Notes under the pieces: model-generated
Database searches by the model: none
The model's input: the letters and a program-made list of their open reading frames with translations, nothing else
What the model was told of the DNA's origin: nothing
Shown: positions 1 through 23,945 of the stretch, piece after piece
Layout: every line of letters begins with the position of its first letter
How positions within the stretch are numbered: position 1 is the first letter of the stretch
Program-made: the position numbers and the translations under genes
Origin: an uncultured Draconibacterium sp.
GTDB lineage: Bacteria > Bacteroidota > Bacteroidia > Bacteroidales > Prolixibacteraceae
Assembly (NCBI RefSeq): GCF_963677155.1
Contig: NZ_OY781884.1
Location: forward strand, 4,584,501 to 4,648,500
Direction of reading: 5' to 3'
DNA: 64,000 nt

Positions 1-581
1 CTGCCGGGTTTAAAATGCTGAAGGTTAAAATGGGGCGCGATAACGACAAAGAACTGATTGAAACTATTCGTTCGGTTACCGATGTGCCTTTGTGTGTGGA
101 TGTAAACCAGGGCTGGAAAGACAAACATGAGGCTTTGGAAATGATTCACTGGATGAATGAAAAAGGGATCGTTTTTGTAGAGCAGCCTATGCCCAAAGAT
201 CAGTTGGATGATATGGCCTGGCTAACGGCACATAGCCCACTGCCAACCATTGCCGACGAAGCCTTTCAGCGAATTTATGATATACCGAAATTTAAAGATG
301 TTTACTCCGGAATAAACATTAAGCTGATGAAAAGCACTGGTATGCGCGAAGCCAAAAAGATGATAGATGTAGCACGAGCACTTGATATGAATGTAATGAT
401 TGGTTGTATGACCGAAACGTCGTGTGCTATTTCTGCAGCTTCTCAGTTGTCGCCACTTTGCGATTGGGCCGATCTTGACGGAGCTTTGCTGATAACCAAC
501 GATGTATTTGATGGAATGAAAGTGATTGACGGCAAGGTTACTTTGTTTGATCTTCCGGGAATTGGCGTAGTTAGGAGCTAA
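1..581 (+). CDS. L-Ala-D/L-Glu (dipeptide) epimerase, 5' truncated by window edge
   Basis: C-terminal part of an enolase-superfamily muconate-lactonizing-type enzyme; the reading frame is open from base 3, so the start lies outside the window. Visible catalytic elements are the KxK lysine pair in LKVKMG, metal ligands in CVDVNQ, VFVEQP and TIADEA, and the second acid/base lysine in INIKLMKS, followed by GCMTET. This set and the neighbours (murQ, an amino-sugar kinase, an AmpG-like permease) fit L-Ala-D/L-Glu epimerase, which converts the L-Ala-D-Glu released from peptidoglycan stem peptides into L-Ala-L-Glu for peptidase digestion. Another dipeptide epimerase specificity is possible because the N-terminal capping domain, which sets specificity, is not in the window. 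Confidence 0.85.
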   Translation, partial: AGFKMLKVKMGRDNDKELIETIRSVTDVPLCVDVNQGWKDKHEALEMIHWMNEKGIVFVEQPMPKDQLDDMAWLTAHSPLPTIADEAFQRIYDIPKFKDVYSGINIKLMKSTGMREAKKMIDVARALDMNVMIGCMTETSCAISAASQLSPLCDWADLDGALLITNDVFDGMKVIDGKVTLFDLPGIGVVRS

Positions 582-597
582 GGGCATATAGCATAAC

Positions 598-641
598 AAA
601 GAATCGTATATAGCTATAGCATCAGATATATACGATTCTTT
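598..641. terminator. Bidirectional hairpin terminator between converging epimerase and murQ
   Basis: A perfect 15-bp inverted repeat (598-612 with 627-641, arm AAAGAATCGTATATA) with a 14-nt loop and A/T-rich flanks on both sides lies between two convergent genes. It can serve as an intrinsic terminator for both. Confidence 0.8.
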
Positions 642-666
642 ATTTTTGTACAGATAGTAACCTGTA

Positions 667-1488
667 CTAAACCGGTTGATGTCCCTTTTTCTTGTAATTA
701 TCGAGTACGTCCCGAACTGATCCGTGTAAAAGTAAAAGGCGTTTGGCTTCGTCAAACTCAATGCCTAGTTCATCAACGATCATTGTCGATCCGCGTTCAA
801 CCAGTTTTTTATTGGTAAGCTGCATGTCAACCATTTTGTTGCCTTTTACGCGCCCCAGTTTTATCATCAGCGAGGTAGTTATCATATTCAGCACCATTTT
901 CTGCGCTGTTCCGGCTTTCATACGTGTGCTTCCGGTTACAAATTCAGGGCCTACAATTGGTTCAATGGCGATCTTTGCCACTTTGGCAATTTCCGAGTTT
1001 GGGTTACAGGTAATGCAAGCGGTAAGTAAACCATTGATGTTGCCGTCTTGCAAAGCTCCAATAACGTATGGGGTGCCTCCTGAGGCTGCAATTCCAACAA
1101 TGGTGTCGCGTTCGTTAATCTGATACTTTTGCAGGTCTTCCCAACCACCGTGAATATTGTCTTCGGCAGCTTCAACAGCCTTGCGAATGGCGCGGTCGCC
1201 ACCGGCAATGAGGCCTATTACAACGCCATCGGGCATGCCATAGGTTGGTGGAATTTCTGATGCATCAAGAATCCCCAGTCGGCCACTGGTTCCTGCACCT
1301 AAATAAAACAGACGACCACCCGATTTTACGCGGTCAACAAGTTGGCTTACTAACTTTTCTATTTGTGGAATTTCTTTTTGTACGGCAAGATGAATTTTTG
1401 CATCCTCGTTGTTAATTCCGATTAACAGCTCTTCAACTGTCATTTGGTCGAGGTTGTCGTATAATGATGATGATTCTGTGACCCTCAT
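667..1488 (-). CDS. murQ: N-acetylmuramic acid 6-phosphate etherase MurQ
   Basis: Cleaves the D-lactyl ether of MurNAc-6-P to give GlcNAc-6-P and D-lactate in the cytoplasm during peptidoglycan recycling. The 273-residue protein is one SIS domain of the family's usual size (slightly short at the C-terminus). It shows the phosphosugar loop LGAGTSGRLG (63-72), the catalytic Glu in ASEIPP (E78) and the GSTRMKAGTAQK signature near 190. It lies 5 bp behind a BadF-type kinase on the same strand, so the two are probably one transcript and the kinase would supply the 6-phosphate substrate. Confidence 0.95.
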   Translation of the reverse strand: MRVTESSSLYDNLDQMTVEELLIGINNEDAKIHLAVQKEIPQIEKLVSQLVDRVKSGGRLFYLGAGTSGRLGILDASEIPPTYGMPDGVVIGLIAGGDRAIRKAVEAAEDNIHGGWEDLQKYQINERDTIVGIAASGGTPYVIGALQDGNINGLLTACITCNPNSEIAKVAKIAIEPIVGPEFVTGSTRMKAGTAQKMVLNMITTSLMIKLGRVKGNKMVDMQLTNKKLVERGSTMIVDELGIEFDEAKRLLLLHGSVRDVLDNYKKKGHQPV

Positions 1489-1493
1489 TTTTC

Positions 1494-2330
1494 TTATATA
1501 TTGGTATGAAATTTTTTAAGTCCGTTTATCGGTTTGTCAATAATGTTTCCGATCTCTATTTTTCGGTTGAACGCGACTTCTTTAAGTAAATCTGAATAGT
1601 AGTACGCAATCGATCCTACAAAGTTTACCGTGTAATTTTGATAGTCGTTATAACGTTCAATATTCCTGAAAAAGAAATCGGTAAAACTTCTCTTTATCAG
1701 GTTTTGTACGTAGTTCTGATTTCTGTTTTTGCTTATAAATTCTGAAAATTTAGCCAGGTAGCGACTTGGGTACTCTTCTCGATAAACCGAGTTTAAAACA
1801 TCTGCTAGCTCAAGGTGCAGTTCGTTTTCTATTTTTTGTTTCAGGGTTTCGGGTACGGCACGTTTAAAGTAATCGTTTATAAGAAGTTTACCCAGATAGG
1901 CACCACTGCCTTCATCGCCCAAAATAAAACCCAAGGTAGGGACTTTGTCCACAATTTCGGAGCCATTATATAGGCACGAATTGGTTCCGGTGCCCAATAT
2001 GCAGGCAATACCCGATGATTTTCCCAACAGCGCGCGGGAAGCACCTAAAATATCGTCTTCAACAGCTATCAATGCTTTTGGAAATACTCTTTTCAGAGCT
2101 TCCGATACAACCTGGTCGGTTTTGCCTTTTATGCATCCCGCACCATAGAAATATACTTCGCTTACCTCTTTCTTTTGGTCGTTTGTGAATGTGCTTGAAA
2201 GAGTTGCAAAAATTTCATCTGTTTGCTGGAAAAAAGGATTGATCCCGTGAGTGCTAATTATATATTCTTTTTCAGAGCTCATAAACAACCAATCGGTTTT
2301 TGATGAGCCGCTGTCTGCTATTACAATCAT
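1494..2330 (-). CDS. BadF/BadG-type N-acetylhexosamine kinase (MurK-like)
   Basis: 278-residue actin-fold (ASKHA) sugar kinase. The N-terminal phosphate-1 loop DSGSSKTDW (6-14), the adenosine-side LGTGTNSC and the LGDEGSGA motif are all present, as in GlcNAc and MurNAc kinases. It immediately precedes murQ on the minus strand with 5 bp between them. By analogy with kinase-MurQ pairs (for example MurK of Tannerella and Clostridium), it most likely phosphorylates MurNAc and/or GlcNAc at O6. The exact sugar cannot be read from the sequence. Confidence 0.85.
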   Translation of the reverse strand: MIVIADSGSSKTDWLFMSSEKEYIISTHGINPFFQQTDEIFATLSSTFTNDQKKEVSEVYFYGAGCIKGKTDQVVSEALKRVFPKALIAVEDDILGASRALLGKSSGIACILGTGTNSCLYNGSEIVDKVPTLGFILGDEGSGAYLGKLLINDYFKRAVPETLKQKIENELHLELADVLNSVYREEYPSRYLAKFSEFISKNRNQNYVQNLIKRSFTDFFFRNIERYNDYQNYTVNFVGSIAYYYSDLLKEVAFNRKIEIGNIIDKPINGLKKFHTNI

Positions 2331-2368
2331 TCTGGAACTATTGATTTATTTTCAGAAATTTCCTGTAG

Positions 2369-2426
2369 CAAATGTACAAAATTCTTTTTTATTGGTAATA
2401 TGTAATACAAATATTGTCTACATTTG
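2369..2426. promoter_or_regulatory. Divergent promoter region between the kinase-murQ and amidase transcripts
   Basis: The 216-bp divergent gap carries two TAnnTTTG-type Bacteroidota -7 boxes: TACATTTG on the plus strand at 2419-2426 (for the gene at 2547) and TACATTTG on the minus strand at 2369-2376 (for the kinase). Their -33 TTTG partners are poor or badly spaced, so this is a tentative call. Confidence 0.35.
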
Positions 2427-2546
2427 TTGTCATAATCTTAGTCGGAAAACTATCAAATAAACACATAAATGGATTCGAACCATGTAAAATGACTAAATTT
2501 AATTGGCGAATTCCATACGGTCTTAGCAAGAAAACAATTTTGTTGT

Positions 2547-5516
2547 ATGAAAAATTTAAACCTGACTAAATACCGAAAGCTCAAAGGATGGAAGAAAATA
2601 GTAAAATCTCTGTTTTCCTTATTCCTTATTCTTTTTTCTACTTCTGTAACTGCTCAACCAAAAGAAAAGCTAAAAGAGCAGTTGAACAAAATTATAAATC
2701 AAAGTAGCACTGATTTATACGTGGGTACCGAAAACTATCGAAACGAAAAAAGAGTGGCGCTTGATACTGCATTTTTTTCGCCGGGCACCGATACATTGTT
2801 TCTCTATTTTAATAAAGCACTGGCTGAAATGCCTTTCAGAGAAAGCAGTTTGTCGGCAGTTCGTGACTCTATCCGAAAGTTTTTGCCTGATTCGTTAAAA
2901 AAGATCCCCTTGAAAATTTGGGCTAATCAGTTGCCCTTAGAAGAACTGGTACCTAATTATTACAGACGCGAAATTCCTGTTGATAATAGCAGGTTTACAC
3001 CGGCAACCCGAAAACGTAAAAATGTAGTTCAAAAGATCCGCCCGTATTCAATTTCGGAAGGATTGGACGGAGCAAATATTGCAATGTGGAACAGTCACGG
3101 CTGGTATTACGAACCTGTTCGCGACCGCTGGGAATGGCAACGCGCACGGTTGTTTACCAATCTCGAAGATATTTCTCCGAGTTCATTTGTAATTCCGTTT
3201 ATTATTCCGATGCTGGAAAATGCCGGCGCTAATATTTTTAATGCGCGCGAGCGCGATTGGCAGATCAATGAGGTGGTTGTTGATAACGACCAGTCTACAG
3301 GAAAAAGCAAATTCAAAAAACCGCGAAAACGTAACAATGAGGAACAAGGATTTGAATATGCAGAATTGATACAGGGAATTACAAATCCTTTTCAGGAAGG
3401 AACATCAATTCTGTTCGAAAGTAGGAATAAACCAAATGTTGCGACCTATATTCCTGATTTTCCTGAATCGGGAGAATATGGCGTATATGTTTCGTATGCA
3501 AAAGGAGACGGGCCGGTTACTTATCGTGTAACGCATTCTGGAGGAGTAAGCGATTTTTTGGTTGACCAACGAATGGGATACGGAACCTGGATTTATCTCG
3601 ATAAGTTTTATTTCAAGGAAGGAAAAGATAAAAAGGCCGCCAAAGTAGAGTTGATTGCACCGAAAGGAGAAGGGAAAACTTTCTCTGCTGATGCTGTACG
3701 TTTTGGTGGAGGAATGGGGAACATTGTTCGCAATGGCAGGGCAGGCGGACTTGCCCGTTTTTATGAAGGTGCACGCTACAACCTGCAATATTCTGGCGCG
3801 CCCGACACGCTGGTGTGGAACCTGCACAACGGAGAGGATGATTACAAGGATGATTATATGAGTCGTGGTGAGTGGGTAGACTGGTTAATGGGGGCTCCTT
3901 TTGGCCCAACCAAAAACCGGATGGCTCCGGGCCTGGAAATTCCGATAGATCTGGCTTTTGCATTTCATACCGATGCCGGAATTTTGCCCGACAATAAAAT
4001 TGTAGGAACATTGGGTATTTATTCAACTGACAGAGATACTTCTGTTTTCCCCGACGGACAATCGAAATACGCTTCGCGCGATTTGACCGATTTGATACAA
4101 ACGCAGATTGTAAGCGATATAAATGCTGTGTATAAGTGCAACTGGACACGACGTGGAATGTGGAATTCGCAATACAGTGAGGCTTATCGTCCGCAAGTGC
4201 CAACCATGCTGTTGGAGTTATTGTCGCACCAAAATCTGGAAGACGCAAAATATGTGCTGAATCCAAAATTTCGTTTTGATGTTTCGCGTGCCATTTATAA
4301 AGGAATGTTACGTTTTATAACATCGCAAAATGGGCAGGATTACGTGGTGCAACCTTTGCCGGTTGATCATTTAAATGCCCGGGTTACCGATGGAAATGCG
4401 GTGAAATTAGCATGGAACCCGGTAATTGATGAATTGGAACCAACCGCAGTTCCTGAAAAATATATGGTTTACAAACGTATCGGCGATTACGGATTTGATA
4501 ACGGAACATTGGTCGATAAACCGGAAATAATAGTAACTGATCTGGAGCCAGGTAAAGTTTATGGATTTCGAGTAGCGGCTGTAAATGCAGGTGGCGAAAG
4601 TTTTCCATCTGAAACAGTGGCAGTAGGGATTGCCGAAAATAGCAAAGGCGAAGTGTTGATTGTAAATGGTTTCGACCGCATTGATGGACCGGCCATTTTT
4701 GAGACCGATTCGTTGGCGGGTATTTTGTGTTTCCTCGATCAGGGCGTAGCTTATGGATACGATGTATCGACTACCGGTGATCAGTACGATTTTGGGCGCA
4801 AATCTGCTTGGTTCGACGATGACAGCCCCGGATTTGGAGCGAGTTATGCCAATCTGGAAACAACCATTTTCAGAGGCAATACTTTCGATTTTTCGTTGGT
4901 TCACGGAAAAAGCCTGCTGGCCAATGGTTATAGTTTTGTAACGTCGAGCGACGAAGCAGTGGAAGACGGCCAGACCGATCTTAATACTTATGATCTGGTT
5001 GACTTGCTTTATGGAGAAGAGAAACAAACTTTTCTGCCGGGTGAGAATTCAGTTCCATACTTCGAAATCTATACCGAGAAAATGATAAATGCGCTTTCAG
5101 AATATACGAAAAATGGCGGAAACATTTTTATGTCGGGAGCATATGTTGGCACAGAAATATCGAAAAACAAAAATCAAAGGGAACGGATCGGGAATCTGTT
5201 CGGTTTTAAATGGTTAACAAATCATGCTGTAAAAGGCGGACAATTTTATTCCGTGAATTCAAGTCGTAACTTTACAGGAGCGTTCAACACTGATTATACA
5301 TTAGAGCAGTACCCTGTTGAAGCACCCGATGGAATTGAGGCCTTTGATGAAAATGGAAAGACGATTTTTCGATATGCAGAAAATGGAATTAGTGCAGGTG
5401 TTTATTCCGAAAACAACCACAAATCGCTGGTGTTGGGATTTCCTTTTGAAAGTGTAAAAGGGCAGAATGAGCGCGATGCGTTAATGCGTGAAATCCTAAA
5501 AATGTTAAATAAGTAA
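2547..5516 (+). CDS. Secreted amidase_3-like protein with golvesin-like and FN3 domains
   Basis: 989 residues. A basic N-terminus and hydrophobic stretch ending in SVTAQ (about 15-37) is a signal peptide. An N-acetylmuramoyl-L-alanine-amidase-like zinc hydrolase domain is split by a golvesin/xanthan-lyase C-terminal-like beta domain (about 270-390). Candidate zinc/catalytic residues are H184 (NSHGW, in place of the usual GHGG), H474 (FHTDAG) and E557 (LLELLSH). A fibronectin type III domain follows (about 605-695), then a C-terminal domain of unknown role. Homologues are often labelled xanthan lyase, but that label comes from the golvesin domain. Its position beside murQ and an AmpG-like permease argues for peptidoglycan amidase activity in the periplasm or outside the cell. 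Confidence 0.72.
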   Translation: MKNLNLTKYRKLKGWKKIVKSLFSLFLILFSTSVTAQPKEKLKEQLNKIINQSSTDLYVGTENYRNEKRVALDTAFFSPGTDTLFLYFNKALAEMPFRESSLSAVRDSIRKFLPDSLKKIPLKIWANQLPLEELVPNYYRREIPVDNSRFTPATRKRKNVVQKIRPYSISEGLDGANIAMWNSHGWYYEPVRDRWEWQRARLFTNLEDISPSSFVIPFIIPMLENAGANIFNARERDWQINEVVVDNDQSTGKSKFKKPRKRNNEEQGFEYAELIQGITNPFQEGTSILFESRNKPNVATYIPDFPESGEYGVYVSYAKGDGPVTYRVTHSGGVSDFLVDQRMGYGTWIYLDKFYFKEGKDKKAAKVELIAPKGEGKTFSADAVRFGGGMGNIVRNGRAGGLARFYEGARYNLQYSGAPDTLVWNLHNGEDDYKDDYMSRGEWVDWLMGAPFGPTKNRMAPGLEIPIDLAFAFHTDAGILPDNKIVGTLGIYSTDRDTSVFPDGQSKYASRDLTDLIQTQIVSDINAVYKCNWTRRGMWNSQYSEAYRPQVPTMLLELLSHQNLEDAKYVLNPKFRFDVSRAIYKGMLRFITSQNGQDYVVQPLPVDHLNARVTDGNAVKLAWNPVIDELEPTAVPEKYMVYKRIGDYGFDNGTLVDKPEIIVTDLEPGKVYGFRVAAVNAGGESFPSETVAVGIAENSKGEVLIVNGFDRIDGPAIFETDSLAGILCFLDQGVAYGYDVSTTGDQYDFGRKSAWFDDDSPGFGASYANLETTIFRGNTFDFSLVHGKSLLANGYSFVTSSDEAVEDGQTDLNTYDLVDLLYGEEKQTFLPGENSVPYFEIYTEKMINALSEYTKNGGNIFMSGAYVGTEISKNKNQRERIGNLFGFKWLTNHAVKGGQFYSVNSSRNFTGAFNTDYTLEQYPVEAPDGIEAFDENGKTIFRYAENGISAGVYSENNHKSLVLGFPFESVKGQNERDALMREILKMLNK

Positions 5517-5532
5517 GAAAAAGCAAAAGATA

Positions 5533-6993
5533 ATGACAAAGATTAACTGTTTCGTACCCGCTGCTGACTGGTCGCAGGTGGCAGAGATGATTGGAGAATT
5601 ACAGGCCAATCCTTCGGTAAATAGAATATTTTTACCCGAAAATGTGTCCAAAGAAGCCGGCGAAAAGGCAGAAGCTTTTTCGTTTGGTGCACTGACTTCT
5701 ACGGCAACAGTAAAGGCTATGGCTGCTTTAGCAGAAGACGCGGATTACGTTTTACTACTTACAAAAGTAACGGCCGTAAAACTGGGGCAATTTGCGATCG
5801 AGCGTTTGGTGGACACCGCAGAATTAACTGGTGCCGTTAAAATATATTCCGATTATTATGAGGTGAAAGAGGGCAAGCAGGTAACACATCCGGTGATTGA
5901 TTATCAGGAAGGCAGTTTACGCGACGACTTTAATTTTGGTCCACTGGTGTTGTACAAAGCCGATGCTTTTCAAACCGCTATAAGAAACATGGCGCAGGAT
6001 TTTGAATACGCCGGAATGTATTATCTGCGCTTAAAAGTGTCGCAGCAGGGCGAGTTGTTCCGCATTCCAGAGTTCTTATACACCATTGACGAGACCGATA
6101 ACCGCAAAAGCGGTCAGAAAATATTTGACTATGTAGATCCGAAAAACCGCCAGGTGCAGGTTGAAATGGAACAAGCTGCAACCGAACACCTAAAAGATGT
6201 TGGTGCCTGGTTGAGTCCTGATTTTACTCCGGTGGAACTGGATGAAAAGGCTTTTGCGAAAAAAGCGTCGGTGATCATTCCTGTTCGAAACCGTGAAAAG
6301 ACTATCGCCGATGCTATCGAGTCGGTACTGATGCAAAAAACGAATTTCGATTTTAACCTGATCGTTATTGATAATCACTCAACTGATAAAACCACCTCTA
6401 TAATTAAGTCCTTTGCTGAAAAAGATGATCGTGTGGTGCACATTAGCCCAGTGCGCGAAGATCTTGGTATTGGTGGATGCTGGAATCTTGGTGTCCACGA
6501 TTCGCGTTGCGGAATGATTGCCATGCAACTCGACAGCGATGATATTTACAAAGACGAAAATACACTGCAAGAAGTGGTTGATGTTTTTGAAACTGAAAAA
6601 TGTGCCATGGTTGTAGGAACCTATCAGCTGGTGAATTTTGATTTGGAAGAAATTCCACCCGGAATTATCGACCATAAAGAGTGGACACCAGACAATGGAA
6701 AGAACAATGCTTTACGAATTAACGGTTTAGGTGCGCCGCGTGCTTTCTATACACCTGTTTTGCGCGACGTGAAAATTCCAAATACCAGTTATGGTGAAGA
6801 TTATGCAGTTGGGTTGGCTATTTCAAGAAATTACCAAATCGGCCGTATTTACGATAATCTGTACCTTTGCCGCCGTTGGGACGACAACTCGGATGCATCC
6901 CTTGATATTATGAAAATGAATACACACAATACCTACAAAGACCGTATCAGGACAATCGAATTAAAGGCCCGCCAGACGAAAAATAGAATGTAA
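5533..6993 (+). CDS. Two-domain family 2 glycosyltransferase-like protein
   Basis: 486 residues, 16 bp after the amidase-like gene. Residues about 245-470 are a canonical GT-A/GT2 domain: ASVIIPVRNRE (245-255), VIDNHSTD and the metal-binding LDSDD (333-337), then GEDYAVGL as the likely general-base region. Residues 1-235 look like a second, degenerate GT-A fold without a DXD motif (start KINCFVPAADW, later FGPLVLYKADAF). No signal peptide or membrane segment, so cytoplasmic. Its place between a secreted amidase and DUF4922/SpoIID genes ties it to peptidoglycan fragment metabolism, but donor and acceptor are unknown. Confidence 0.75.
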   Translation: MTKINCFVPAADWSQVAEMIGELQANPSVNRIFLPENVSKEAGEKAEAFSFGALTSTATVKAMAALAEDADYVLLLTKVTAVKLGQFAIERLVDTAELTGAVKIYSDYYEVKEGKQVTHPVIDYQEGSLRDDFNFGPLVLYKADAFQTAIRNMAQDFEYAGMYYLRLKVSQQGELFRIPEFLYTIDETDNRKSGQKIFDYVDPKNRQVQVEMEQAATEHLKDVGAWLSPDFTPVELDEKAFAKKASVIIPVRNREKTIADAIESVLMQKTNFDFNLIVIDNHSTDKTTSIIKSFAEKDDRVVHISPVREDLGIGGCWNLGVHDSRCGMIAMQLDSDDIYKDENTLQEVVDVFETEKCAMVVGTYQLVNFDLEEIPPGIIDHKEWTPDNGKNNALRINGLGAPRAFYTPVLRDVKIPNTSYGEDYAVGLAISRNYQIGRIYDNLYLCRRWDDNSDASLDIMKMNTHNTYKDRIRTIELKARQTKNRM

Positions 6994-7001
6994 GGCTATG
7001 C

Positions 7002-7073
7002 TTCGACTTCGCTCAGTATGATAGTTAAACTCATGGAATAATGAAATGGTGATCACAGTGAGCGTAGTCGAAC
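7002..7073. repeat. REP-like imperfect palindrome (TTCGACT..CGCTCA family)
   Basis: Arms TTCGACTTCGCTCAGTATGA (7002-7021) and TCACAGTGAGCGTAGTCGAA (7053-7072) are complementary at 17 of 20 positions around a 31-nt spacer. The core resembles palindromic elements that recur between genes in many Bacteroidota. It fills the gap between the GT2 and DUF4922 genes and could act as an mRNA stabiliser or attenuator in the operon. Confidence 0.6.
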
Positions 7074-7098
7074 TGTAAATGAGCAATAGAAAAACATT

Positions 7099-8037
7099 AT
7101 GAACTCAATTTCAACAGAAATAAGACAATTGCTTGCCAATCAGAAAGAGGAATGGGAACTGGCAGGAAAGAATTTCGCTGGACTGGAAAATGTGCGGGTG
7201 CGCGAATTTCAGTTTGAAGGATTTTCGGTAAAAGTTCAGTTTAATCCCGGACGAATTGTTTCGTCGGCAGCAAAAGTGGATAAAAAGTCGATTGAAGCCC
7301 GGCCGTGTTTTTTGTGTGCGGCAAACCGACCGACCGAGCAGCGTGGAGTAACTTTTGGCGATTACGAGGTGTTGGTAAATCCGTTCCCGATCTTCCCCGA
7401 GCATTTTACGATTCCTGCTTTTGCGCATACGCCACAGCAAATAAAAGGAAACTTTGGTAATATGCTAGACCTGGCGCAGGCGATGGACGGTTTTACTTTG
7501 TTTTATAACGGCCCCAAGTGTGGCGCTTCAGCACCCGATCATTTTCATTTTCAGGCTGGCAATACAGGTTTTATGCCTCTGGATGATGAAGTAACTGCAT
7601 TAAAGGAAAAATACGGACTCCGGTGGCGAAAAGAAGAGGTGGATTGTTGCGCTATAAAAGACGGAATTCGCAACTTTCTGGTGTTGGAATCGGCTAATAA
7701 AATGTTAATAATTAATGTTTTTGCAGACATCTACACAGAGCTTGAAAATAAGGAAAGCAATCAGGAACCGATGCTAAATATTCTTACCCGTTATATTGAT
7801 GGCGGCTGGCGTGTTTTCGTTTTTCCTCGTGCGCTGCATCGTCCGTTGCAGTATTTTGCTGAAGGTGAGGAGAATATTCTGATCAGTCCGGCTTCGGTTG
7901 ATATGGGTGGTGTTTTAATTACTCCACAGGAGAAGGATTTTTTGAAGATCGGGAAAGCCGATATTGAAAGTATACTAAAACAGGTTTTGTTGCCTGAAGA
8001 CCAATTTGATAAGCTAATCGTAAAACTTAAACAATGA
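7099..8037 (+). CDS. DUF4922 family HIT-like nucleotidyltransferase/phosphorylase
   Basis: 312-residue cytoplasmic protein of the HIT/GalT/Ap4A-phosphorylase superfamily. It has a CFLC pair (C70, C73) in the place where GalT-type enzymes hold a zinc or structural Cys pair, and the HxHxQ nucleophile motif HFHFQ (H148, H150, Q152), whose first histidine usually forms the nucleotidyl intermediate. It overlaps the downstream SpoIID-like gene by 4 bp (8034-8037), so the two are translationally coupled. The known family chemistry is nucleotidyl transfer to or from phosphorylated sugars or dinucleotides. Acting on a peptidoglycan sugar phosphate is an inference from context only. Confidence 0.8.
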   Translation: MNSISTEIRQLLANQKEEWELAGKNFAGLENVRVREFQFEGFSVKVQFNPGRIVSSAAKVDKKSIEARPCFLCAANRPTEQRGVTFGDYEVLVNPFPIFPEHFTIPAFAHTPQQIKGNFGNMLDLAQAMDGFTLFYNGPKCGASAPDHFHFQAGNTGFMPLDDEVTALKEKYGLRWRKEEVDCCAIKDGIRNFLVLESANKMLIINVFADIYTELENKESNQEPMLNILTRYIDGGWRVFVFPRALHRPLQYFAEGEENILISPASVDMGGVLITPQEKDFLKIGKADIESILKQVLLPEDQFDKLIVKLKQ

Positions 8038-9365
8038 GCATTCCTAATATTCACGTTGGCATAATGAGTGCCGATAAGATCGATTTTAATTTTCAGGGAG
8101 AATACCTGCTTGTCGGAACAGATAAAGTTTTGGCAGGAGAGGGAGCAGTTTGTATTGAAAACGAAAAGATACAGCTAGCCGGAAAGGAAATAAGTCAGAA
8201 TAAATTGTATTTCGTGCCGTTTGAAAAGGGAAAGTCGGAATTCGAACTAAAAGATGTTACCATCGGTGTAAATTTTCACTGGGAGCAAAAAGAGGATCAG
8301 AAATTTCAGGGGGCTTTGAAATTTATTATCGAAGAGGACAAAATTACTGCTGTAAATATTCTTTCGATTGAAGATTACCTGATCAGTGTAATTTCGTCGG
8401 AAATGAGTGCCCAAAGTTCACTCGATTTGCTAAAAGCGCACGCCATAATTTCGCGTAGTTGGTTGATTGCTCAAATTGAAAAGCAGGATAAACTTACCGA
8501 TGCCGGAGAAAGGTATGAAAGCACTTTTAAATCTGATGAGGAGTACATAAAATGGTACGACCGCGAAGATCATACAAATTTTCATGTTTGTGCCGATGAT
8601 CATTGCCAGCGCTACCAGGGAACTACGCGTTCGCATAACCCGAATGTAGTAAAAGCTGTTAACGAAACGGCCGGTGTCGTACTTTCCTATAAAGGTGTGA
8701 TTTGCGATGCACGTTTCTCAAAATGTTGCGGCGGTATTGCTGAGCTTTTTGAGAATTGCTGGGAACCTGTAAATCATCCGTATTTAACTGCGGTGATAGA
8801 TAACCCGTCAGCTCCAAAAGGTTTTGAAACAGATCTTACTGTAGAAGAAAATGCAGTTCTGTGGTTAAAAAATGCACCGGAAGCGTTTTGTAATACCGAT
8901 GATGAAGAGGTGCTGAAACAGGTGCTGAACGAGTACGACTGGACAGCCAAAGATTTTTACCGCTGGACAGTGGAATACAAACAGAATGAACTTTCTGCTT
9001 TGATCCTGAAACGTTCGGGGCATGATTTCGGAAAAATTCTGGATATGATTCCGATAGAACGTGGCGCTTCAGGACGATTAGTAAAACTGAAAATTGTAGG
9101 AACGAAAAAGACGCTAACCGTTGGAAAGGAGCTGGAAATTCGCAGATGGCTGAGCGAGTCGCATTTATACAGTTCTGCTTTTGTGGTGGAGAAAAAGGAT
9201 GTGGTTGATGGTGTGCCCGGCAAGATTATTTTGCAGGGAGCCGGCTGGGGACATGGAGTTGGCCTTTGCCAGATCGGTGCGGCCGTAATGGGGCACAAGG
9301 GCTATAAATACGATGAAATTCTAAATCATTATTTTAAAAATATAACTTTGGAGAAGAAGTATTAA
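8034..9365 (+). CDS. SpoIID/LytB-domain protein without signal peptide
   Basis: 443 residues with the SpoIID fold. The putative catalytic Glu is in ISSEMS (E123), there is a cysteine-rich KCCGG patch in the middle, and the C-terminal GWGHGVGLCQIGA motif is present. SpoIID enzymes are lytic transglycosylases that cut denuded glycan strands and are normally exported. Here the N-terminus (MSIPNIHVGIMSADKIDF) is not hydrophobic, so the protein is predicted to be cytoplasmic. It is coupled to DUF4922 and followed by an AmpG-like permease, which suggests it acts on imported soluble muropeptides. A start further upstream would run into the DUF4922 gene and adds no signal peptide. Confidence 0.82.
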   Translation: MSIPNIHVGIMSADKIDFNFQGEYLLVGTDKVLAGEGAVCIENEKIQLAGKEISQNKLYFVPFEKGKSEFELKDVTIGVNFHWEQKEDQKFQGALKFIIEEDKITAVNILSIEDYLISVISSEMSAQSSLDLLKAHAIISRSWLIAQIEKQDKLTDAGERYESTFKSDEEYIKWYDREDHTNFHVCADDHCQRYQGTTRSHNPNVVKAVNETAGVVLSYKGVICDARFSKCCGGIAELFENCWEPVNHPYLTAVIDNPSAPKGFETDLTVEENAVLWLKNAPEAFCNTDDEEVLKQVLNEYDWTAKDFYRWTVEYKQNELSALILKRSGHDFGKILDMIPIERGASGRLVKLKIVGTKKTLTVGKELEIRRWLSESHLYSSAFVVEKKDVVDGVPGKIILQGAGWGHGVGLCQIGAAVMGHKGYKYDEILNHYFKNITLEKKY

Positions 9366-9381
9366 AACGTTAAAATTGGCA

Positions 9382-9441
9382 TGTCATTCCGATCTTGATT
9401 CGGAATCTGATTGGAGATGCTGAAATTAATTCAACATGACG
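9382..9441. repeat. REP-like inverted repeat (GTCATTCCGA...TCAACATGACG type)
   Basis: An imperfect palindrome with outer GTCAT (9383-9387) and ATGAC (9436-9440) and an inner GGAATCT/AGATGC portion. It resembles dispersed intergenic palindromes of the type TGTCATTCCGA...TCAGCATGACG found in many bacterial genomes. It lies directly upstream of the permease and creates a spurious in-frame ATG at 9417. Confidence 0.5.
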
Positions 9442-9464
9442 TTGCCGGAATATATATTAAAACT

Positions 9465-11306
9465 ATGTCAGCTAAATCAACCAACCGCAATCCCTGGTTT
9501 TGGATTCCCACACTTTATTTTGCAGAAGGATTACCCTATGTTATTGTAATGACCCTCTCGGTGATCATGTACAAACGACTGGGCATATCAAATACCGACA
9601 TTGCTTTATACACCAGCTGGCTGTATTTGCCGTGGGTAATAAAACCCTTGTGGAGCCCGATTGTGGATTTGCTGAAAACCAAACGTTTCTGGATTGTGAT
9701 TATGCAATTGGTGGTTGGTGTTGGGTTGGCCGGAGTGGCTTTTACCATTCCTGTTAGTAATTTTTTTCAGTATACGCTGGCGTTTTTCTGGTTGCTGGCT
9801 TTTAGTTCAGCTACCCACGATATAGCTGCCGATGGTTTTTATATGCTGGGATTGAGTCAGGGCGATCAGTCGTTTTTTGTGGGAATCAGAAGCACCTTTT
9901 ACCGTTTTGCCATGCTTACAGGGCAGGGGCTTTTGGTAATTCTTGCCGGAGCTCTGGAAACTGCAACAGGTTTGGAGCCGCTTGAAGTGAATGTTACAGC
10001 CCAGAATATTGCGGTTCAGGAAATTTCGTTTAATCCAGAAAGTTATCAGCAGTTGCACGAATCGGGCGATATTTATTTTGTTTCGGAGAAGGAAGTGAAA
10101 GTGCCCATTGGTCTGGTAAGAAAAGATCAGGCGGCTGAGATAAAGAAAAGTGTAGACGAATGGAATATCAATAATAACTTTTATGCGAGTGAAACTCCGC
10201 TTGCAACAAAAGATGCCGGTTGGTGGACACGAAAAGTATCTACACCTTTAAAAGAAACACTAAAAGAAAAATTCAATAAAGAAACGGTTGACCTGAGTTC
10301 TGAAGTTGGCAACCTGGCCGTTATCCCCATTCAGCTATCTACTAAACCCGAGGCCGGCGAGCAGGTGGTGCTGAATTTTGGCTACGAAAAAGGCGATGCC
10401 AGTATAAAACTGGTAAAAACCTATCGTTACGAATTTGATGAAAGCAACTGGGATAACCCTGCTTTTGCCGTTGTTCAGCTCGATCCGAAATTAAAAAAAG
10501 CCACACAGGCTACTTTTGTTGGCCGCTCTGGGAATATAAAGTTTTCGTGGTTAGTGGTTATGGTCTGTATTGCGGTGTTGTTTATGGCATTTTCGCTGTA
10601 TCACCGTTTTGCTTTGCCGCATCCGGCAAGCGATGTAGCCAACAAAACCGAAGGCAAAAGCGTGATGCCCGAGTTCTTCGAAACCTTTGCAGCCTTTTTC
10701 CGCAAAAAAGAAATTGTGTCGATAATGCTATTCCTCTTATTGTACCGACTGGCCGAATCGCAGCTGGTAAAAATGGCTTCGCCGTTTTTGCTCGATGCCC
10801 GTGAAGCCGGTGGACTTGGACTTACAACCGGCGATCTGGGTTTGGTGTACGGAACGGCCGGAATGATTTCGCTGACAATTGGCGGTATTTTAGGCGGTAT
10901 TGTTGCCTCGCGCAAAGGACTAAAACACTGGCTGTGGTGGATGGCGCTGGCCATTAATCTGCCTAACCTTTGTTATTTGTTGTTGTCGTTGTTTAACCCT
11001 ACATCGTTGTGGTGGATTTCGGCTGCGGTGGTGATCGAGCAGTTTGGTTACGGCTTTGGATTTACAGCTTATATGCTGTTCTCTATCTACGTTTCGGAAG
11101 GGAAGCATAAAACAGCACATTACGCTATTACAACCGGTTTTATGGCACTGGGAATGATGATTCCGGGAATGTTGAGCGGTTGGCTACAGGAAATAATCGG
11201 CTACCAGAGTTTCTTTGTTTGGGTAATGATCTGTACCATCCCAATCTTTTTGGTGCTGCCATTCGTTAAAGTTGATTCGAAGTTTGGTATTAAAGGGAAA
11301 GAATAA
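9465..11306 (+). CDS. AmpG-like muropeptide MFS permease with large periplasmic insertion
   Basis: 613 residues from the ATG at 9465. Upstream in-frame codons run through the palindrome at 9382-9441 and are not used here. Twelve membrane helices can be counted, with AmpG-like features in helix 1 (YFAEGLPYV), helix 2 (LPWVIKPLW) and helix 4 (THDIAADG). Between helices 5 and 6, on the predicted periplasmic face, sits a hydrophilic insert of about 190 residues (about 167-358). AmpG imports anhydro-muropeptides for recycling, which fits the cluster. Ordinary AmpG proteins lack such a domain, so substrate range may differ. Confidence 0.85.
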   Translation: MSAKSTNRNPWFWIPTLYFAEGLPYVIVMTLSVIMYKRLGISNTDIALYTSWLYLPWVIKPLWSPIVDLLKTKRFWIVIMQLVVGVGLAGVAFTIPVSNFFQYTLAFFWLLAFSSATHDIAADGFYMLGLSQGDQSFFVGIRSTFYRFAMLTGQGLLVILAGALETATGLEPLEVNVTAQNIAVQEISFNPESYQQLHESGDIYFVSEKEVKVPIGLVRKDQAAEIKKSVDEWNINNNFYASETPLATKDAGWWTRKVSTPLKETLKEKFNKETVDLSSEVGNLAVIPIQLSTKPEAGEQVVLNFGYEKGDASIKLVKTYRYEFDESNWDNPAFAVVQLDPKLKKATQATFVGRSGNIKFSWLVVMVCIAVLFMAFSLYHRFALPHPASDVANKTEGKSVMPEFFETFAAFFRKKEIVSIMLFLLLYRLAESQLVKMASPFLLDAREAGGLGLTTGDLGLVYGTAGMISLTIGGILGGIVASRKGLKHWLWWMALAINLPNLCYLLLSLFNPTSLWWISAAVVIEQFGYGFGFTAYMLFSIYVSEGKHKTAHYAITTGFMALGMMIPGMLSGWLQEIIGYQSFFVWVMICTIPIFLVLPFVKVDSKFGIKGKE

Positions 11307-23733: not shown

Positions 23734-23807
23734 GGTGGCGTAGTTCAGTTGGTTAGAATGCCGGCCTGTCACGCCGGAGGTCGCGAGTTCGAGTCTCGTC
23801 GTCACCG
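23734..23807 (+). tRNA. tRNA-Asp(GTC), first copy
   Basis: A 74-nt cloverleaf. The acceptor stem GGTGGCG/CGTCACC has one G-T pair, the anticodon stem is CCGGC/GCCGG with loop CTGTCAC (anticodon GTC at 23768-23770), the T-arm is GCGAG-TTCGAGT-CTCGT and the discriminator is G. CCA is not encoded. Confidence 0.97.
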
Positions 23808-23848
23808 CTTATTTTTTTGACAAAAAAGGTTTAGAACATCAATTTATT

Positions 23849-23922
23849 GGTGGCGTAGTTCAGTTGGTTAGAATGCCGGCCTGTCACGCCGGAGGTCGCG
23901 AGTTCGAGTCTCGTCGTCACCG
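23849..23922 (+). tRNA. tRNA-Asp(GTC), second copy
   Basis: Identical over all 74 nt to the copy 41 nt upstream, so it is a recent tandem duplication or is held identical by gene conversion. It shares the same promoter and ends at the terminator at 23946. Confidence 0.97.
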
Positions 23923-23945
23923 CTTAGTCAATCAGACAAATGATG

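Follow-up and report, generated by a model that had tools for sequence, protein, structure and literature searches.

Gene content of the recycling locus

We analysed 64,000 nucleotides of DNA from an uncultured Draconibacterium sp. (contig NZ_OY781884.1, positions 4,584,501 to 4,648,500; this whole stretch is called the window) and focused on three adjacent plus-strand genes that lie among genes for peptidoglycan recycling. They encode a tandem GT-A protein of glycosyltransferase family GT2 (5533..6993), a DUF4922 protein (7099..8037; domain match with an expect value (E) of 3.5e-64) and a SpoIID/LytB-domain protein of a long-insert type (8034..9365), and are parts 1, 2 and 3 of the module described below. 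The GT2 and DUF4922 genes are separated by 105 bases, and the stop codon of DUF4922 overlaps the start codon of SpoIID in a 4-bp ATGA on the plus strand (8034..8037). A first-pass annotation had listed an epimerase, a kinase, MurQ, an AmpG-like permease, a secreted amidase-like protein and these three proteins, and had described the three as one plus-strand run with a 4-bp overlap; all of these genes were located in the window and the run is as described. Its GT2 label is right as to family, with the correction that the protein contains two GT-A-like domains.

Upstream of the three genes, and ending 16 bases before GT2, is a plus-strand gene for an exported amidase-like protein (2547..5516), which has an N-terminal hydrophobic stretch, an Amidase_3-like domain, a Golvesin_C domain and an fn3 domain. 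The Amidase_3 match is below the cut-off (E 2.4e-4); the Golvesin_C domain seems to split the Amidase_3-like domain, with metal-site-like conserved motifs on either side, and the motifs SHG, R-E-R-D, H-x-D-A-G and L-L-E-L do not vary among those relatives (11 of 14) that exceed 700 amino acids (aa). Searching this protein against the PDB returned fn3-type matches only; it is related to genes at the same position elsewhere that are named 'xanthan lyase' (Parabacteroides). Downstream of SpoIID, the plus strand carries an AmpG-like permease of the major facilitator superfamily (MFS) with a long insert (9465..11306; TIGR00901 E 1.4e-51), whose translation more likely begins at the ATG at 9465 than at the TTG at 9411. 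We call this protein AmpG-like because its TIGR00901 score, 175 bits, is under the cut-off of 350 for the AmpG muropeptide permease, a cut-off that was passed by no genome in either of the samples used below (0/178 and 0/89). Three more AmpG-like MFS genes are present in the genome of the window (G000:C1:1231698, 2374453 and 2644936).

The genes from the amidase-like to the AmpG-like protein form a plus-strand block (2547-11306), and murK and murQ form a minus-strand block before it (2330-667). MurQ, the N-acetylmuramic acid (MurNAc) 6-phosphate etherase, is encoded at 667..1488 on the minus strand and scores above the cut-offs of both PRK05441 (362 bits) and TIGR00274 (309.8 bits). The gene at 1494..2330, also on the minus strand, codes for a BadF-like amino-sugar kinase of the MurK type that matches the solved chains 8ow9 ('Putative novel MurNAc kinase', E 6.9e-66) and 8oqw ('ATPase', E 2.3e-66), and slightly more weakly 8oqk ('N-acetylglucosamine kinase', E 3.5e-61). 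It is probably a MurNAc 6-kinase, though chains named N-acetylglucosamine (GlcNAc) kinase give similar scores. At the window's edge (3..581, plus strand) lies the C-terminal part of a dipeptide-epimerase-like protein, assigned from an MR_MLE_C domain match, with NCBIfam matches for L-Ala-D/L-Glu epimerase and DgcA that are all below cut-off. The complete gene codes for 337 aa and starts about 430 bases upstream of the edge; the gene 5' of it, outside the window, is NlpC/P60 lipoprotein-like, the NlpC/P60 domain having been tested on the relative in locus L002.

The closest named relatives of the DUF4922 protein are from Draconibacterium, with 83-85% identity in the top four (among the best 80 of 106 relatives). 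In the Draconibacterium loci L002-L005, SpoIID and AmpG are separated by about 2.4 kb of extra DNA, which in L002 holds a large gene for an exported-looking product (L002:12248-14719) with no counterpart in the window. Elsewhere in the window, two tandem tRNA-Asp (gtc) genes are located at 23734-23923.

The three genes form a conserved module

We examined the distribution of the three genes in two samples: a phylum sample of 178 genomes, mostly drafts, with completeness of at least 90%, and an order sample, in which 88 families are represented by 89 genomes. In the phylum sample, matches were accepted at E < 1e-40 for DUF4922, at E up to 1e-60 for GT2 and at E up to 1e-25 for the AmpG-like family (TIGR00901); three genomes with weak DUF4922 matches (G027, G160 and G136; E 8e-6 or worse) were scored as negative, and SpoIID proteins were divided into long and short types by the length of the domain match (339-357 versus 255-288 bases). 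In the order sample, a long SpoIID was defined by E < 1e-75, all other matches having E of 1e-14 or worse, and a SpoIID in two pieces (G196) as well as a GT2 gene with one stop (G226) were counted as present.

The results showed that a strong DUF4922 match was present in 26 of the 178 phylum-sample genomes. All 26 carried a long SpoIID, compared with none of the 152 others, and the 24 DUF4922-negative genomes with any SpoIID carried only short domain matches. A full-length GT2 orthologue was found in 25/26 DUF4922 genomes versus 0/152 others, and an AmpG-like gene in 26/26 versus 30/152. The order sample gave the same picture: DUF4922 was present in 21 of 89 genomes and GT2 in the same 21 and in none of the other 68, while a long SpoIID was found in 21/21 versus 1/68 (G263, 93% complete) and an AmpG-like gene in 21/21 versus 7/68. 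MurK, present in 20/21 module genomes versus 46/68 others, is weak as a sharper clue (p 0.01; the Fisher values given here and for AnmK ignore relatedness). In 16 of the 26 phylum-sample genomes, SpoIID lay on a different contig or at a distance of over 10 kb from DUF4922, and GT2 was apart from DUF4922 in 4 of 25; some linkage may be hidden here by breaks between contigs. The genes for GT2, DUF4922 and the long SpoIID make up a conserved module and are not chance neighbours. The question raised by the first-pass annotation, whether DUF4922 stays with AmpG and SpoIID, is answered positively for gene content (26/26 and 21/21), with the reservation that adjacency is often lacking, as for the distant SpoIID genes. 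The pairwise identity correlations among GT2, DUF4922, SpoIID and AmpG (r 0.73 to 0.89) were not used, since shared ancestry alone yields such values.

We then inspected the loci of the best 80 of the 106 DUF4922 relatives, a set that is hence biased to close ones, includes many metagenome-assembled genomes and covers Bacteroidota, Ignavibacteria/Chlorobiota and a few Verrucomicrobia; five plasmid records were used for gene context only. Of the 76 loci with 1.5 kb or more ahead of the DUF4922 frame, 64 had GT2 at most 3.2 kb upstream of it. With profiles built on the fetched DUF4922 loci, the 41 loci having at least 8 kb on each side of DUF4922 contained GT2 in 37 cases, SpoIID in 28, AmpG in 26, MurK in 25 and MurQ in 24; the amidase-like gene (12 loci) and NamZ (11 loci) were less frequent, and Pfam confirmed the identity of NamZ for three proteins. 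Fusions were found at both junctions of the module. GT2::DUF4922 is a single open frame of 830 codons in L123 (G230), and DUF4922::SpoIID fusions of 792 and 673 codons occur in L122 (G185) and L124 (G198). An annotated GT2::DUF4922 protein of 821 aa is also found in Bacteroides finegoldii, in a record that was deposited as a plasmid; its gene overlaps SpoIID by 4 bases, and 3' of these lie an MFS gene and then a gene whose BadF match is below cut-off. These fusions argue for physical or metabolic coupling of the three proteins and for a cytosolic SpoIID.

Two departures from the usual layout were also observed. In one genome, GT2 and DUF4922 occur twice, as an intact copy and, on another contig, as a broken one (G047:C140), and in a Parabacteroides distasonis record (L142:3848-10190) the place of SpoIID and AmpG after GT2 and DUF4922 is taken by sppA, lpxK and thiL; sppA is also found in L081.

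Predicted properties of the three proteins

The GT2 protein is predicted to consist of two GT-A-like domains (predicted local distance difference test score, pLDDT, 87, dropping to low values at 190-204), of which the first had no Pfam glycosyltransferase match. Its best structural match is chondroitin polymerase K4CP (2z86), with template modelling (TM) scores of 0.33-0.42. The GT-A domain carries the DxD and ED motifs of a GT2 glycosyltransferase, and D334-S-D-D, E422-D423 and R447-R-W are invariant in 35 sequences. Mean column identity was 66% for GT2, the highest of four aligned families, followed by SpoIID (64%), the kinase (60%) and DUF4922 (50%).

For the DUF4922 protein, the model (pLDDT 93) gave the yeast diadenosine tetraphosphate (Ap4A) phosphorylase Apa2 as the top structural match (4i5t_A, E 6.6e-11, 322 columns), which a profile search also recovered (E 8.7e-6). 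Further matches were the DUF4931 protein 4qvu (E 2.6e-5), Arabidopsis ADP-glucose phosphorylase 2h39, CDP-diacylglycerol pyrophosphatase and GalT. An HxHxQ motif is present as H148-F-H150-F-Q152, with H148, H150 and Q152 invariant in 33 sequences. The predicted structure, with a duplicated GalT-type fold over the whole chain, and this motif are those of the GalT/Ap4A-phosphorylase superfamily (HIT branch). We propose a reaction on nucleoside diphosphate (NDP)-sugars for DUF4922 because several of these fold relatives move nucleotidyl groups between NDP-compounds and phosphates. An outlying DUF4922 protein (23% identity) was seen on a Persicobacter plasmid beside an APH-type kinase and a GH2 enzyme (L143:572-5903), perhaps in a sugar-1-phosphate pathway.

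All 47 long SpoIID proteins, one further, incomplete locus being excluded, contain the (S/A)SEM glutamate and an H-x5-C-x3-5-HC motif; by analogy with a solved SpoIID, we take these to be the catalytic residue and a zinc site. Members of the SpoIID family are usually exported or membrane-anchored. The module proteins begin with a short M..EPxIxVGI-like segment and by inspection had no signal peptide in 48 of 48 loci (L057 is a fragment), whereas the 16 other, short-type SpoIIDs used for contrast all had a hydrophobic N-terminal segment. We do not class the module protein as an ordinary SpoIID, because it has the domain and the glutamate and by inspection lacks the export signal or anchor. It is probably cytoplasmic.

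Distribution of AnmK and NagZ-like genes

The pattern of AnmK is the best clue to the step that the module serves. In the phylum sample, AnmK was found in 10 of 26 module genomes versus 113 of 152 others, and among the AmpG-positive genomes in 10/26 with the module versus 29/30 without it (Fisher p 3e-6). In the order sample it was found in 3/21 module genomes versus 59/68 others (Fisher p 1e-9). A hand tally of the phylum sample by family showed at least one member without AnmK in five of six module families versus one of nine families with an AmpG-like gene and no module (p 0.011), with family f13 belonging to both sets. One AnmK lying in two stretches inside a single 556-aa frame (G211:C84) was counted as present.

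These patterns suggest two modes of recycling, one in which fragments are split outside the cell and AnmK is used, and one in which the disaccharide is imported and processed by the module. The AmpG-positive, AnmK-positive genomes without the module (29/30 in the phylum sample) suggest a third, Escherichia coli-like set. The E. coli recycling route consists of AmpG, NagZ, AnmK and MurQ. A reverse set-up, with AmpG absent, NagZ exported and AnmK present, is described for Rhodothermus marinus in part of PMC6987092.

NagZ-like GH3 genes were also found near the module. In L030, L045 and L074 such a gene lies 3' of DUF4922, and NamZ and AmpG lie 5' of GT2. By inspection, the NagZ-like proteins of L030, L053 and L074, encoded in the same gene run as GT2-DUF4922, have no evident signal peptide; the start in L045 is unclear, L023 is incomplete, and Pfam and NCBIfam were run on L053 alone, whose match was below the NCBIfam cut-off.

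A proposed route for imported muropeptide sugars

Taken together, it is likely that GT2, DUF4922 and SpoIID form one module of AmpG-dependent recycling; the linked MurK, MurQ, NamZ and, in some loci, NagZ-like GH3 genes are recycling genes, which supports this view. That the module takes over the AnmK step is a proposition we regard as evenly balanced. Stated in full, the reading is that three cytoplasmic enzymes act in one pathway on AmpG-imported GlcNAc-anhydroMurNAc and GlcNAc-MurNAc, as an alternative to the AnmK route, and here too we see about equal weight for and against. The first-pass annotation had proposed an extra route for imported glycan fragments; its tie to AmpG is borne out by gene content, and the metabolic route itself is one that we infer.

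In this pathway, the exported amidase would first remove the peptides, as its domain suggests, and AmpG would then bring in the disaccharide, a step in print for Tannerella forsythia, whose AmpG, studied by mutant, imports GlcNAc-anhydroMurNAc and GlcNAc-MurNAc (part of PMC7670621). The three enzymes would next cleave the disaccharide and open the anhydro ring. Working in reverse, GT2 would take GlcNAc off the disaccharide and transfer it to a nucleoside diphosphate, and DUF4922 would convert the NDP-GlcNAc and phosphate into GlcNAc-1-phosphate while regenerating the nucleotide, so that the two proteins together would amount to a glycoside phosphorylase. SpoIID, with its lytic-transglycosylase fold, would use water or a different acceptor to open the 1,6-anhydro bond in MurNAc. 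Free MurNAc would finally pass through MurK and MurQ, steps that are in print for the T. forsythia homologues, and the peptides would go to the NlpC/P60 protein and the epimerase. This exact chemistry (reverse GT2, phosphorolysis by DUF4922, ring opening by SpoIID) is tentative and, taken as a whole, unlikely to be right in every part. Equally speculative is the corresponding view of an energy-conserving trio, in which a reverse glycosyltransferase and an NDP-sugar phosphorylase make up a split glycoside phosphorylase and the SpoIID fold opens 1,6-anhydroMurNAc without a kinase.

Several observations weigh against this reading. The main point against strict replacement of AnmK is the set of AnmK-positive module genomes: AnmK is kept in 10 of the 26 in the phylum sample, the window's own among them (C1:4826464-4827492), and the AnmK counts are raw, without correction for the species tree. 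Only seven AmpG-like genomes of the order sample lack the full module; AnmK is present in 5/7 of these versus 3/21 module genomes (p 0.009). The main point against the GT2/DUF4922 half is the cytosolic-looking NagZ-like gene beside GT2-DUF4922 in some loci, which argues that these two proteins are not required for splitting the disaccharide in those loci. We know of no precedent for the reverse action of a GT2 enzyme or for ring opening by a SpoIID protein. The superposition of DUF4922 on Apa2 chains is of moderate quality (TM 0.51-0.60). Genome G156 has DUF4922 without a GT2 match at the threshold, and G263 has SpoIID and no other module gene. When any start was allowed, maximum hydropathy overlapped between the two types of SpoIID (up to 2.19 in module proteins versus 1.83 and more in the others); this comparison gave both sets equal choice, whereas the starts used otherwise were chosen by a script that, for the short type, favoured hydrophobic ones. 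Hydropathy therefore fails to separate the types cleanly, and the cytosolic location rests on inspection and on the fusions. In T. forsythia, growth on free anhydroMurNAc is restricted, and it is left possible that AmpG also carries peptides (both from excerpts of PMC7670621).

Strict replacement of AnmK by the module was rejected, as some genomes, the window's own included, hold both. That the module replaces NagZ everywhere is doubtful, given the NagZ-like GH3 genes of L030, L053 and L074.

We also considered other explanations. The best-surviving one is forward use of GT2, which would add a sugar from an NDP-sugar to imported (anhydro)MurNAc or another cytosolic acceptor, with DUF4922 setting or repairing the NDP-sugar pool and SpoIID cutting the product later. 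GT2 retains the DxD, ED and R-R-W motifs of an ordinary transferase, its best structural match is a polymerase, and plant DUF4922-superfamily proteins are discussed as regulators of the GDP-glucose level in part of PMC11047344. However, the genes that recur around the module serve import and recycling, and no acceptor or export gene was recognised in the clusters inspected, whose annotation is not exhaustive; we therefore consider forward use unlikely. Somewhat less probable again is that SpoIID is a cytosolic lytic transglycosylase acting on longer imported chains, that GT2-DUF4922 serves another recycling step unrelated to anhydroMurNAc, and that the AnmK pattern reflects lineage history. 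The (S/A)SEM glutamate and H-C-HC motif in all 47 long SpoIIDs would fit this explanation, as would the presence of AnmK in 10 of 26 module genomes, but the three genes hardly occur apart from one another, and AmpG is associated with small fragments (for E. coli, in an excerpt of PMC7670621).

An improbable alternative is a primer cycle, in which SpoIID in reverse would put anhydroMurNAc on a GlcNAc-ended primer, GT2 would remove the MurNAc as NDP-MurNAc, and DUF4922 would turn part of it into MurNAc-1-phosphate that feeds peptidoglycan synthesis directly. Such a cycle would use all three enzymes, would account for the fusions and the AnmK pattern and is compatible with the loci holding a NagZ-like gene; the linkage of MurK (25/41) and MurQ (24/41) to the module points instead to free MurNAc as the product, and no precedent for the cycle is known to us. 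Finally, adjacency by itself is common in compact operons, but unrelated envelope genes merely sharing one operon is a scarcely credible account and largely refuted, since co-occurrence is near-perfect even where the genes are unlinked and the fusions are independent; chance adjacency was rejected by both genome samples and the fusions.

Comparison with known systems

The closest published system is the ampG-murTKQ operon of T. forsythia (Tanf_08345 to Tanf_08385), given in excerpts of PMC5388701 and PMC7670621 as xanthan lyase, gtf, gtf, lytB, ampG, ybbC, murT, murK and murQ, and found by reverse transcription PCR to be co-transcribed (PMC5388701). By the published annotation, this gene order agrees with module loci such as the Dysgonomonas locus L013, which reads amidase-like, GT2, DUF4922, SpoIID, AmpG, NamZ, MurK and MurQ. 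Tanf_08355 would correspond to DUF4922 and Tanf_08360 to the module SpoIID, both matched by position and name only. The operons differ in murT, for which L013 seems to have no room. In the window, by comparison, MurK-MurQ lie upstream on the opposite strand, there is an epimerase gene, and the stretch yielded no NamZ.

No function is assigned to the gtf, gtf and lytB genes in the available parts of these two papers, and no description of a GT2/DUF4922/SpoIID module was found in the open-access literature searched. The first-pass annotation had called the route undescribed, which holds for the functions and fails for the gene order, already published as the T. forsythia operon. T. forsythia has no predicted AnmK and nevertheless grows on GlcNAc-anhydroMurNAc, and how it handles anhydroMurNAc is named as a matter for future work (excerpts of PMC7670621). 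Three named candidate enzymes that travel as a unit with AmpG-like genes make this question directly testable. The pathway would suggest a role for the unassigned DUF4922 family and a function in the cytosol for a SpoIID-type protein, and would extend over Bacteroidota and some neighbouring phyla.

Each module protein also resembles a known family. GT2 shares with K4CP two GT-A domains on one chain; in contrast, its genes are not in a capsule context, the TM scores are low and its first domain is the one without a Pfam match. DUF4922 shares the fold and HxHxQ with the superfamily of GalT, Ap4A phosphorylase and GDP-hexose phosphorylase, whereas its gene context is peptidoglycan recycling; plant GGP-type proteins are labelled as DUF4922 superfamily in parts of PMC9871823 and PMC11047344. 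The module SpoIID has the domain and glutamate of the SpoIID lytic transglycosylases (4rwr, 5i1t and 5txu) and differs from them in its long insert, in the absence of a signal peptide on inspection and in its fusion to DUF4922 in two genomes. The pairing of an amidase with SpoIID is reminiscent of SpoIIP/SpoIID. With the AnmK route of E. coli, the proposed pathway would have in common AmpG import, MurQ and the type of imported fragment, whereas AnmK is often missing from module genomes, which have three other enzymes.

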